A DNA stretch of 41,540 bases from an uncultured Bacteroidota bacterium (lineage in GTDB: Bacteria; Bacteroidota; Bacteroidia; Chitinophagales; LD1). The stretch spans positions 1 through 41,540 of the forward strand of contig CAIOTH010000027.1 of NCBI GenBank assembly GCA_903861145.1. Reading direction: 5' to 3'. The notes beneath the pieces were generated by a model that was not told the origin of the DNA, ran no database searches, and saw only the letters and a program-made list of their open reading frames with translations. Of this stretch, positions 2,830 through 34,924 are shown piece by piece (the first letter of the stretch is position 1; each line of letters begins with the position of its first letter). The position numbers and the translations under genes are program-made.

Positions 2830-3813
2830 ATGGATCAAAATTTTCATCAAGCCGAGTTTGACCAACCGCATCCGGAAAGGACGCGCGCTATTCTTAAAGC
2901 TCATCCCGAAGTAAGACAGTTAATGGGCAAAAACCCATACACCGCTTTAATCATGCTATTTGTATTGACCCTGCAAATTTCTATTGCCTACGGCATGGGT
3001 AAATTGGGCTTTCACTACTGGTATGTAAGCGTTTTAATAGCTTATTGTGTGGGTGCCTTTGCCAACCATTGCATGTATGTAATTATTCACGATGCCACCC
3101 ATAACCTTGTTTTTACAAGCAAAATTTGGAACAGGTTTGTCGCTATGTTTGCAGACTTGCCGAATTTGGTACCCGGCGCAATGGGCTTTAATGTGTATCA
3201 CCTTAAGCACCACGCACATCAGGGCGATTATGATTTTGATGCCGACATTGCTGGCCATTGGGAAGCAAAATTTATTGGCAACAAATGGTACGGAAAAGCC
3301 TTTTGGTTGCTGTTCTTCCCTGTTTTCCAGGTAACCCGTCCTCCGCGTTTAAAGGCCATTACCCTTTTCAGCAAATGGACTTTTTTAAACCTGGCTTTTG
3401 CTATTGTTTTCGATACAGCTATTGTTTATTTCTGTGGCTGGGCTGGCTTGGTTTACCTCGTGTTTTCATTCTTCTTCTCAATAGGTCTACACCCGGTAGG
3501 CGCCCGTTGGGTACAGGAACATTATACCTATGATATTGACCAGGAAACCGCCAGCTATTACGGCCCGGTTAATATTGTGGCGCTAAACGTAGGCTACCAT
3601 AATGAGCATCACGATTTTCCTGCCATTCCATGGAACAATCTTCCCAAACTGAGAGCACTGGCCCCTGAGTATTACGACAACCTAAAGTATCACACAAGCT
3701 GGAGCAAATTACTGGTGCAGTTTTTATTTGATGAGCGCTTTAGTTTATACAGCCGTGTAGAGCGCATCAGCAAGGGAAAAGTAAGTATTGACCGCGCTAA
3801 TAAGGCGGCTTAG
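2830..3813 (+). CDS. Fatty-acid-desaturase superfamily protein resembling sphingolipid Delta4-desaturase (DEGS type)
   Basis: Membrane di-iron desaturase, 327 aa. Three histidine boxes are present: HDATH (87-91), HLKHH (124-128) and HNEHH (257-261). The whole layout follows eukaryotic dihydroceramide Delta4-desaturase: an N-terminal segment PHPERTRAILKAHPEVRQLM (14-33) like the DES-specific N-terminal domain, then GLHPVGARWVQEHY (219-232), YYGPVNIVALNVGYHNEHHDFP (243-264) and EYYDNL (280-285), each recognisable in animal DEGS1. Hydrophobic segments lie near 38-58, 65-86, 157-170 and 185-220. By homology the likely substrate is a sphingoid base or ceramide, which Bacteroidota make in saturated form; the substrate is inferred. 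No sphingolipid synthesis genes are in the window. A generic acyl-lipid desaturase is the alternative. Confidence 0.85.
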   Translation: MDQNFHQAEFDQPHPERTRAILKAHPEVRQLMGKNPYTALIMLFVLTLQISIAYGMGKLGFHYWYVSVLIAYCVGAFANHCMYVIIHDATHNLVFTSKIWNRFVAMFADLPNLVPGAMGFNVYHLKHHAHQGDYDFDADIAGHWEAKFIGNKWYGKAFWLLFFPVFQVTRPPRLKAITLFSKWTFLNLAFAIVFDTAIVYFCGWAGLVYLVFSFFFSIGLHPVGARWVQEHYTYDIDQETASYYGPVNIVALNVGYHNEHHDFPAIPWNNLPKLRALAPEYYDNLKYHTSWSKLLVQFLFDERFSLYSRVERISKGKVSIDRANKAA

Positions 3814-3840
3814 TTGAAATTGAAAAATTCAAAAACGCAC

Positions 3841-4191
3841 ATGGGTTTTCTGAAAACAACGCTTCTGTTCATTTCATTCTTCGCGCTAACCCAATTTGGC
3901 TTTGGCCAACAACAGGGCGGCTATGCTACTATGCGTGTGTTCGATTGCAACAAAGGGGTAAGCATGGGTTCGGGTTACCTGGCCGCCAGGGTTTTTATTG
4001 TGTATGAAGACAGCACCACCGAAGACATTCCCATTTTACCCTACAGCGAAAAAAACGAGCTGTCCAACCTCAAAAAGATAAACCAGATTATCAATGGCCT
4101 TAAGGCAAAAGGATATTTCCTCATCAGCCAATACACCACCGGCGAGCAGGGAAACCTGGTATCGGATTATACTTTTTTAAAGCAGCGATAG
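3841..4191 (+). CDS. Small secreted protein, hypothetical
   Basis: About 116 aa. The frame is open from a TTG at 3814 directly after the desaturase stop, but the ATG at 3841 (MGFLKTTLLF) begins a clean signal peptide ending near FGFGQ, so that start is preferred. The mature part is a small alpha/beta protein whose C-terminal half (a helix with LKAKGYFLISQYT, then YTFLKQR) has the pattern of DUF4177-like small proteins (helix, GW/GY turn, strand, final Lys/Arg). Export to the periplasm is inferred. It is tightly spaced to the desaturase and may share its transcript. Function unknown. Confidence 0.65.
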   Translation: MGFLKTTLLFISFFALTQFGFGQQQGGYATMRVFDCNKGVSMGSGYLAARVFIVYEDSTTEDIPILPYSEKNELSNLKKINQIINGLKAKGYFLISQYTTGEQGNLVSDYTFLKQR

Positions 4192-32606: not shown

Positions 32607-33746
32607 TTAAAACCTGCGAACGGCGCGTACATTCAAATCAATGTCTTTGACATCTGCATATGGCCAACCGAGGGAAAAATGAAAGTACCAGGCCCAGTAC
32701 GCCAGAGGGTCCTGGTCGTTCCGGTACTCTGTAGAACTCCAATATTCCGTAGGTTGAAAGCCGTTTATATCTCCTAAATTACGATTAACGGCTGCAGCAG
32801 ATTTGTAGCATTGTTTCAGCTCGGTGATTGCGGGCAAATACCAGTCAGTATACCCCCCGGCATTGTATGCCCGGCAAAGCAGCGCTGCGCCAGTGGTATC
32901 TCCAGGTTGCGCAACAGCTGCGTAGGTGTTGGCTTTACCATTGCTAAAGCTTTCGGCAGTCGGGCCAACTTCATGTATTACATTGCCCCAGATAGAATTA
33001 TTGCTAATATCGGTAAGTGAGGCAATTAAACCGTGCTGAACCCCGGCTGAATCCCAAACATCAACCACAATACCGCCACCGTACAAGTCGCCAATATTAA
33101 TGGCAAAGCCCCCTGTTGCACCGGTTACCCCTGGTGCGCCAACGCCGGTAGTCCCGGTTAAACCGGCTATGCCGGTAGCCCCGGTTACACCATTGTTTCC
33201 CGTCACCCCGGTTGCGCCCGCTGCCCCGGTTGCGCCTCTATTTCCGTTGCTACCATTGGTGCCGGGCAACCCGGTTGGACCAACCGGACCCATGGGTCCC
33301 GTTATCCCTTGTACACCCCGAAAACCGGTTGCTCCAATTGTACCAGGCTCACTGTTACCAGCAAACAAAGCATAAGGTACACTAACCAATTGAGAGGTAC
33401 CCATATCCATAAAATTACTTCCTCCATTTGGGTCCATCTCCACCTGCAAATATTTTGCCCCGTTTGACCAATTGGCAACATTGAGATTGCTGATAGCCCC
33501 TATTTTAGTGCTGACCAGACCAAATGTATTGGTTATGCCGGTCTGTGTTTCGGTAAAGACGATGTTGCCTGTTGCCGAATTATTATGTATGGTAAAGCGC
33601 ATGGTTATATGCGCCCCGCCCACCAAGGGCTGACCGTTTGAATTTCGCGCTATGGCCTGATAGTTTAATTGCTGCGGTTGTTGCGCGGTAGCAGCGCCAA
33701 TAGCCCAAAAGACAAATAAGATTAGGGGGGATAATATTTTTCTCAT
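32607..33746 (-). CDS. Secreted collagen-like repeat protein with DUF1566-type C-terminal domain
   Basis: 379 aa. Signal peptide (ending AATAQQ), an N-terminal beta domain common in Bacteroidota surface proteins ([16 protein letters not shown], then [38 protein letters not shown]), a collagen stretch of 22 uninterrupted Gly-X-Y triplets starting after NSEP, a two-residue interruption (GV), three further triplets, and a DUF1566-like domain of about 160 residues ([31 protein letters not shown]). The layout matches Legionella Lcl adhesins, where the C-terminal domain binds polysaccharide. No T9SS CTD is seen. Paralogue of the next gene. Confidence 0.9.
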
Positions 33747-33796
33747 ATCTTAATTGCAATTCATTTTATCTTTATAGATTATACTTAATACTCATC

Positions 33797-34924
33797 TCAA
33801 AATCTTCGCACCGCACGGACACTATATGTAACATACTTAACGTCATTGAATGCCCAGCCATAATTGAACTGATAATACCACGCGAAATTTCCGGGAGTAT
33901 CAGTATCCTCAGTGGAGGACCAGTACGTTACGGGTTGAAATCCATTTATATCCCCTAGATTATGATTCACTATGGCCATGGCCTGGTAACATTCCGCCAG
34001 TTCCCAAACGGCGGGCAAATACCAATCAGTATATCCCGCGCCATTGTATGCCCGGCAAAGCAGCGCTGCGCTTACTGTGGCACCGGGTTGCGCAATAATA
34101 GCATACGTGTTGGCTTTACCATTACTGAAACTTTCGGCTGTAACGCCAATCAGTGGTTGAACGTTGCTCCAAACTGACGAGTCACTAATATCGGTAAGTG
34201 ATGCGATTAAACCATGCTCTGTGCCGATTGAATCCCAAACATATACTGCTATCCCCCCACCGTATAAATCGCCAATATTTACTGTAAACCCCTCTGCCGG
34301 CCCGGTAGCGCCCGTTACGCCAATACCGGTTGCCCCATTAGTGCCAGCAATACCGGTTGCCCCGGTTGCCCCGGTATTTCCCGTAACGCCTCCTAAGCCC
34401 GTAGCGCCTGTAGCGCCGGCGCTTCCATTAATTCCATTGCTACCAGTCAACCCGGCTGCGCCATCAGGGCCGGTTGGCCCGGTAGCACCCGTTGTACCTT
34501 GAGGTCCCGTAACTCCTTGAGGCCCGGGCTCACTATTCGCAGCGAACAAAGCGTATGGTACGCTAAGTAATTGAGAAGTCCCCATATCATTAAAATTGTT
34601 TCCCCCCGTTGGGTCAAGTTCTACCTGTAAATATTTTGCTCCATTTGACCAGTTAACAACACTAAGGTTGTTCACAGAGCCTATTTTCACACTTACTAAA
34701 CCAAATCGATTGGTGGTGTCTGTTTGTGTTTCGGTAAAAACAGGGTTGCCTGTCCCCGAAATATCGTGAATAGTAAAACGCAAGGTTACATGCGCTCCGC
34801 TTACTACTGGCTGGCCAATAGAGGTTCTCACTATAGCTTGATAGTTTATTTGTTGCGGAGCTTGTGCAAAAGACAAGGCCATTAATAGAACTAAAAACAG
34901 TGAGACTAATGTAGCCTTCAACAT
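33797..34924 (-). CDS. Secreted collagen-like repeat protein with DUF1566-type domain (paralogue)
   Basis: 375 aa with the same architecture as the gene 50 bases downstream of it: signal peptide, N-terminal beta domain ([17 protein letters not shown]), 22 Gly-X-Y triplets, a two-residue interruption (GI) at the same place, three further triplets, and a DUF1566-like domain ([41 protein letters not shown]). The two proteins differ widely in the X/Y residues and in loops of the C-terminal domain, pointing to an old tandem duplication. Probable surface or matrix protein by analogy with bacterial collagen-like adhesins; the secretion route after Sec is not clear from the sequence. Confidence 0.9.

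Follow-up and report, generated by a model that had tools for sequence, protein, structure and literature searches.

A 4,5 double bond sets animal ceramides and sphingosine apart from the saturated dihydroceramides with which bacteria are usually credited, and the question raised by the locus studied here is whether a bacterium may carry the enzyme that introduces this bond. The window (the whole stretch of DNA analysed, 41,540 nucleotides from an uncultured Bacteroidota bacterium) contains at 2830..3813 (+) a gene that a sequence-only reading had presented as a homologue of the eukaryotic sphingolipid Delta4-desaturase. The membership in that family holds up and the reading as a whole is supported in part, the substrate and the position attacked being those that we infer for the enzyme.

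Domains and conserved residues of the window desaturase

The gene at 2830..3813 (+) is intact, starting with ATG, having no internal stops and encoding 327 residues, and frame 1 of the reverse complement over the same span is interrupted by many stops; a promoter and terminator scan returned one site each, against shuffle means of 3.3 and 2.1. The gene is annotated as a membrane desaturase of the DES family (sphingolipid Delta4-desaturase type) from Pfam, the DEGS1 alignment, the tree and a structural model. Pfam analysis of the protein yields 99.2 bits for FA_desaturase (PF00487) and, at residues 4–37 (2839..2940, +), 42 bits for PF08557 (Lipid_DES, Sphingolipid Delta4-desaturase), whose cut-off is 23 bits. 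The DES-type N-terminal segment that had been claimed is thus recognised by the profile search proposed along with it, and the objection that a lack of PF08557 would raise does not apply; DEGS1 itself presumably bears this domain. The three histidine boxes were located, from the translation and the alignment, at residues 87–91 (HDATH, 3088..3102, +), 124–128 (HLKHH, 3199..3213, +) and 257–261 (HNEHH), the last one lying inside the YYGPVN...NVGYHNEHHDFP block at residues 243–264 (3556..3621, +). This block had been described as being of the DEGS1 type and is indeed near-identical in DEGS1.

The comparison with the animal enzyme made use of a single eukaryotic row, human DEGS1, against which the window protein aligns end to end with 37% identity over 323 residues and 216 bits. 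Residue conservation was analysed in an alignment of DEGS1 with 123 DES rows, 117 of which are distinct, six genes being present twice and the window gene also as L027. Within these 123 rows residues H87, H91, H124, H127 and H128, as well as H221, H231, N253, H257, H260 and H261, each show a conservation of 1.00 (rounded), and DEGS1 has the same residue at all of these positions. A strict pattern for the three boxes is passed by 108 of the 123 rows, the other 15 missing it at one box each, as with HNEHHDL in L061. Some bacterial rows are closer to the animal enzyme, L003 being 48% identical to DEGS1 over 312 residues. We also note that L003 to L006 (phylum family f24) are 43–48% identical to human DEGS1, and that the window gene shares 40–42% identity with L003, L004 and L005, which is less than these have with DEGS1.

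The sole other match in the genome of the window at E≤0.001 is L002 (23% identical, E 7e-4). Scanned over 337 of its 359 residues, beginning at an internal Met, it scores 112.5 bits on PF00487 and returns no PF08557 match at E≤0.01. Taken together, the Pfam, residue and end-to-end comparisons support the assignment of the window gene to the DES family.

Predicted structure and comparison with other desaturase families

An AlphaFold model built from 45 sequences has a mean pLDDT of 89.3 and a pTM of 0.87. Foldseek returned 203 matches in the PDB, two of them at E≤0.001, both being chains of a chloroplast FtsHi motor complex (TM values of 0.62 and 0.60 to the window model); the following fold matches are weak, namely AlkB (E 1.4e-3, TM 0.34) and human stearoyl-CoA desaturase (E 0.017, TM 0.36). 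Five viral fold matches were found at E≤0.001, named as desaturases or as a cytochrome-b5-domain protein, with TM values of 0.52–0.68 and identities of 12–13%. When the PDB was searched by sequence, no desaturase turned up at E≤1.

Other family assignments were considered and dismissed. Carotenoid hydroxylase and ketolase models of NCBIfam give 32.3 bits against 475 (CrtR) and 22 against 350 (CrtW), the acyl-lipid Delta5 desaturase DesA reaches 10.5 bits against an equivalog cut-off of 500, and the guanitoxin hydroxylase score is well below its cut-off. With phmmer, aprataxin was matched over about 62 residues (best E 0.0027), which was put down to chance.

Distribution and phylogeny of the relatives

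PF08557 is found above its cut-off in 30 of 296 genomes of the phylum, in 19 of 247 genomes of the class and in none of 14 control genomes. A scan of named genomes confirmed at least 579 relatives out of at least 594 pattern stretches. Desaturation of this type had been called a step usually thought eukaryotic, a statement that has to be corrected at the level of sequence, since these 579 or more stretches encoding relatives belong to bacterial and archaeal genomes. Isolates bearing the gene include Methylocella silvestris, three Methylocapsa species and Beijerinckia sp. L45, as well as Pedobacter hartonius and Mucilaginibacter sp. Bleaf8. A search for plasmid or phage copies of the desaturase gave no match, and five pattern stretches on viral contigs resulted in no confirmed copy.

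A tree was calculated from 69 of the 123 DES rows together with DEGS1 and one outgroup, leaving out L027, rows shorter than 280 residues and those sharing 78% identity or more with a retained row. The window gene falls into a group (SH-aLRT 95) with three rows from Chitinophagales/Bacteroidetes and two others, L060 and L061, both of which adjoin an SPT-like synthase (SPT, serine palmitoyltransferase). A position within an acyl-lipid or carotenoid clade had been named as a result that would speak against the reading; the window protein groups instead with PF08557 desaturases and DEGS1, in a tree whose sole row from another desaturase family is the very distant outgroup. DEGS1 joins L003 and L004 among the bacterial rows (SH-aLRT 100), being the one eukaryotic row; the genomes of L003 and L004 both hold an SPT and a gene of the cysteate-acyltransferase type. 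The tree draws eukaryotic DEGS as nested in bacterial DES. However, the outgroup branch is extremely long and that of DEGS1 is long, and the alternative with all bacterial rows on one side is not rejected by the AU test (p-AU 0.287), so that neither the nesting nor a direction of transfer is claimed.

Gene neighbourhoods of the relatives

The neighbourhoods were analysed for the best 80 of the at least 579 confirmed relatives, which by NCBI phylum are distributed over Bacteroidota (35), Pseudomonadota (21), Ignavibacteriota (14), Verrucomicrobiota (7) and Acidobacteriota (1), with two unplaced. The ORFs of these loci were clustered and distances were measured from the desaturase, the names of the clusters resting on Pfam scans of two synthases, four GNATs and two hydroxylases. 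An alpha-oxoamine synthase (SPT-like) is present in 23 of the 80 loci, separated from the desaturase by 6 to 5464 bp, and all 23 are among the 29 loci of Verrucomicrobiota (6 of 7), Acidobacteriota (1 of 1) and Pseudomonadota (16 of 21). A GNAT acyltransferase occurs in 17 of the 80 loci, in some at a greater distance of up to 8.3 kb, and a fatty-acid hydroxylase in 9; the scanned GNATs score 24.3, 49.2, 53.6 and 21.8 bits (Pfam cut-off 20.7) and the scanned hydroxylases 67.8 and 74.2 bits (cut-off 31). The order desaturase, hydroxylase, synthase, CDP-alcohol transferase, GNAT is observed in L061, L063, L066 and L069, and in loci of the Beijerinckiaceae type (for example L094, L098 and L108) the order is synthase, GNAT, desaturase. 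The nearest relatives outside Bacteroidota lie in apparent sphingolipid gene clusters. As a side observation, the operon GNAT of L108 has relatives in 44 plasmid records, for example from Roseomonas (13), Ensifer (6), Pseudomonas (3) and Escherichia (3).

The operon synthases have a less clear identity. In the PDB the two that were compared have SPT 3a2b as their best match, with 265 bits in one case, where 2-amino-3-ketobutyrate ligase obtains 245, and with 220 bits in the other, where the following entry obtains 203; 3a2b is the entry that we take to be the Sphingobacterium SPT. By BLAST, the ligase of the window's genome ranks above its SPT for all 23 operon synthases, the NCBIfam model BioF comes first for both synthases tested (340 against 323 and 343 against 292 bits, all under the cut-off), and in a synthase tree the operon enzymes form two clades of their own. 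It is for these reasons that they are called just SPT-like.

A distinct situation is found in Bacteroidota and Ignavibacteriota, none of whose 49 loci among the best 80 is linked to an SPT-like synthase. Also, at a threshold of E≤1e-6 neither the window nor 20 further loci of the phylum, spanning 9–16 kb each, gave a match to SPT, GNAT, FA2H or CDP-alcohol transferase. What is conserved next to the window desaturase and its closest homologues is a small protein of up to 125 residues (3814..4191, +), with a TTG start directly past the desaturase stop and a GYATMRVFDCN motif, for which Pfam returned nothing at E≤1. Its relatives, 52–83% identical, lie just 3' of the desaturase in 8 of the best 80 loci (L051–L055, L057, L058 and L071). 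Elsewhere in the window, 32607-34924 (-) encodes two tandem proteins with collagen-like G-x-T-G repeats.

Candidate sphingolipid genes in the genome of the window

A lack of sphingolipid genes in the genome had also been named as a result that would speak against the reading. This objection does not apply, the genome of the window (98.65% complete) having an SPT and, as a candidate for the ceramide synthase, a GNAT relative. The SPT, at C151:48139-49347, scores 396 bits against SPT 3a2b and 222 against the cysteate acyltransferase 28eh, and its best NCBIfam model is SerpalmtaseCFB, with 494 bits, below the equivalog cut-off of 640; the 2-amino-3-ketobutyrate ligase of the same genome obtains 357 bits on that model and 693 on its own. 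The genome holds a further alpha-oxoamine synthase, L040 (G000:C33:48233-49228), whose best PDB match is an AONS-named enzyme (136 bits, SPT 110); it was dismissed as a sulfonolipid enzyme, as it reaches only 81 bits against cysteate acyltransferase. The label 'BioF' given to one gene of this genome comes from a best NCBIfam match that is below its cut-off (332 against 426 bits).

The GNAT at C90:13620-14780 is 32% identical over 359 residues to the operon GNAT of L061 and obtains 19.4 bits on Pfam Acetyltransf_1, under the cut-off of 20.7. Relatives of this protein lie less than 400 bp from an SPT in at least 31 genomes, a floor rather than a rate as the pairs were chosen by eye as adjacent, and this makes the family a candidate for the ceramide synthase. 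Caulobacter bCerS is, we assume, also a GNAT. However, the family is found in 255 of the 296 phylum genomes at E≤1e-30, and its nearest relatives (43–53% identical) come from genomes of the same class, many without SPT, those adjacent to SPT being about 30–37% identical; the enzyme may consequently serve other N-acyl lipids as well. A search of the genome for a cysteate fatty acyltransferase came back empty at E≤1e-100 and at E≤1e-60, so that, as far as searched, the organism would be able to start sphingolipids and not sulfonolipids. We have also observed thirteen matches to the fatty-acid hydroxylase family PF04116 above cut-off in this 4.7-Mb genome (for example L133–L140), the family being matched in 2 of the 14 control genomes; some of these hydroxylases may act on the same lipids as the desaturase.

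Association of the desaturase with serine palmitoyltransferase

The co-occurrence of the two genes was analysed in the 247 genomes of the class, in which matches to the SPT of the window's genome fall into a group of at least 339 bits (44–49% identity, its own gene aside) and a group of at most 290 bits (40% identity or less); presence was defined as at least 339 bits, the cut being placed at this gap after seeing the data. DES was found in 19 genomes, SPT in 22 and both in 9, which corresponds to SPT in 9 of 19 DES genomes against 13 of 228 others (Fisher odds ratio 14.9, one-sided p=3.4e-6; leaving out the window's own genome, p=1.8e-5). Counting by genus, the sole correction for kinship, SPT occurs in 7 of the 10 genera with DES, compared with 9 of the 126 that lack it (p=7.8e-6). 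In the phylum sample the association is weak, an SPT match at E≤1e-95 being present in 27 of the 30 genomes with DES and in 198 of the 266 without it (one-sided p=0.04). One DES genome, G070, has two SPT-like genes, which share 61% and 50% identity with the SPT of the window's genome, and its 35% match to cysteate acyltransferase is the second of these. At the cut used, SPT is absent from 10 of the 19 DES genomes of the class.

Proposed reaction and alternatives

Judging from the comparisons above, the enzyme most likely acts on C4 of a ceramide-type lipid of bacterial origin, introducing a double bond or a hydroxyl group. It is a DES-family membrane desaturase with presumed di-iron chemistry, and we propose that a (dihydro)ceramide supplied by the organism's own SPT and a GNAT-type N-acyltransferase would be attacked at C4-C5 of the long-chain base, presumably in an oxygen- and electron-dependent desaturation, which is the simplest mechanism. 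The product would be a 4,5-unsaturated, animal-type ceramide base, desaturation being favoured here over hydroxylation. If the base were reduced in the periplasm, as passages on Caulobacter propose, one would have to consider in which order the steps occur and on which face of the membrane. On balance we consider this 4,5-desaturation the probable function, with considerable room for another one. It draws support from PF08557, the 37% identity to DEGS1 and the residues shared with it, the SPT and the GNAT relative of the same genome, in which no cysteate acyltransferase was matched at E≤1e-60, the association with SPT in the class, the linkage in other phyla and the grouping with the linked copies L060 and L061. 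It is weakened by the lack of linkage in Bacteroidota and Ignavibacteriota, by the 10 of 19 DES genomes without SPT, by the score of the SPT below the equivalog cut-off, by the unspecific distribution of the GNAT, by the ambiguous identity of the operon synthases and by the weak association at the level of the phylum.

The main rival keeps family and substrate and changes the product, which would be a 4-hydroxy base of the phytoceramide type, as with DEGS2. DEGS2 belongs to the DES family and its third box in the human enzyme presumably departs from HNEHH, whereas the third box of the window protein is HNEHH as in DEGS1, which would speak against hydroxylation. Family and fold leave the outcome unfixed, DEGS2 producing phytosphingosine from dihydroceramide according to a passage in PMC11765627, and we give the hydroxylation a small chance. 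About equally low is the probability we attach to an acyl-lipid or other desaturase or hydroxylase that has a DES-like N-terminus and acts at another position or on another substrate, for example the N-acyl chain. An amide-linked acyl chain is the suggested target of hydroxylation by a DesA-family enzyme of Caulobacter (a passage in PMC11324152); the desaturase gene of Bacteroidota is unlinked to the sphingolipid pathway, and one DES genome that is 99% complete (G465) shows neither SPT nor cysteate acyltransferase. Against such an enzyme speak the PF08557 match, the end-to-end similarity to DEGS1, the common residues of the catalytic region, the SPT association in the class and the linkage in other phyla.

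Action on sulfonolipids (N-acyl capnine) rather than sphingolipids appears very unlikely for the window enzyme. Flavocristamide A is presumably 4,5-unsaturated. Sulfonolipids of the flavocristamide type are mentioned in passages of the literature. In favour of such a substrate, 10 of the 12 DES genomes without SPT (10 from the class and 2 from the phylum sample) carry a gene of the cysteate-acyltransferase type, which in G396 lies about 9.5 kb from DES on the same contig; one of these genes (L188) scores 593–595 bits against 28eh and 7u7h, the latter presumably the Alistipes sulfonolipid enzyme, and 8 of the 9 other loci are 62–66% identical to it. The remaining two of the 12 genomes, G465 (99% complete) and G498 (68%), show neither gene. 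On the other hand, the genome of the window has no cysteate acyltransferase at E≤1e-60, and in the class this gene is present in 216 of 247 genomes and shows no association with DES (16 of 19 against 200 of 228, odds ratio 0.75, p=0.72). Further, SPT without cysteate acyltransferase is seen in twelve DES genomes that belong to the phylum and not to the class. For other genomes, those bearing a cysteate acyltransferase, action on sulfonolipids stays open.

Implications and comparison with known systems

Returning to 4,5-desaturation of a (dihydro)ceramide, the occurrence of relatives in several phyla, some beside candidate sphingolipid genes, suggests that bacteria may make animal-type ceramides. 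In its more specific form, namely that bacteria of several phyla make 4,5-unsaturated ceramides by a hybrid pathway in which an SPT or SPT-like enzyme and a GNAT-type N-acyltransferase act together with a DES homologous to DEGS1, this proposal is tentative and in our estimate more doubtful than the function suggested for the window enzyme. If true, the assignment of unsaturated bases to the host by lipidomics would be unsafe, host ceramides could be mimicked by bacterial lipids, and the origin of DEGS would become a testable question; the closeness of the L003 clade to DEGS1 (48% identity, sister position) would then indicate that the eukaryotic step was exchanged with bacteria, in either direction. 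Among the matches listed in open-access titles and abstract openings no report of a bacterial DES-type desaturase was found, which is not proof of novelty.

The nearest bacterial precedents are the pathways of Caulobacter, for which passages describe the N-acyltransferase CerS (CC_1154) and a reductase, and of Bacteroides, for which a 3-ketosphinganine reductase (BT_0972) is described. The resemblance to these pathways (Spt, CerR and CerS in Caulobacter) lies in the SPT and the N-acyltransferase candidate of the window's genome and in the SPT-like and acyltransferase genes at the loci of the relatives. They differ in that no DES-type step is described in the passages concerned; 'desaturase' appears once in each of two of the three pathway papers, in a reference title and for the acyl-chain enzyme CC_0202, and is absent from the third. 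This DesA-family protein of Caulobacter is akin to the present case, as a desaturase or hydroxylase is suggested for bacterial sphingolipids, and is unlike it in its suggested target, the N-acyl chain, a likening made by description (passages in PMC11324152). DEGS2 (DES2), the dihydroceramide desaturase and C4-hydroxylase, shares with the proposed reaction its substrate, dihydroceramide (in a passage of PMC11765627). The closest likeness in sequence is to DEGS1, with which the window protein has in common the three histidine boxes, the YYGPxN...NVGYHNEHHDFP block and the length (323 against 327 residues). It differs from DEGS1 at R226, W227, Q229, Q238 and W268, which in the animal enzyme are H, F, A, H and G, respectively, and which are nearly fixed across the bacterial DES rows.
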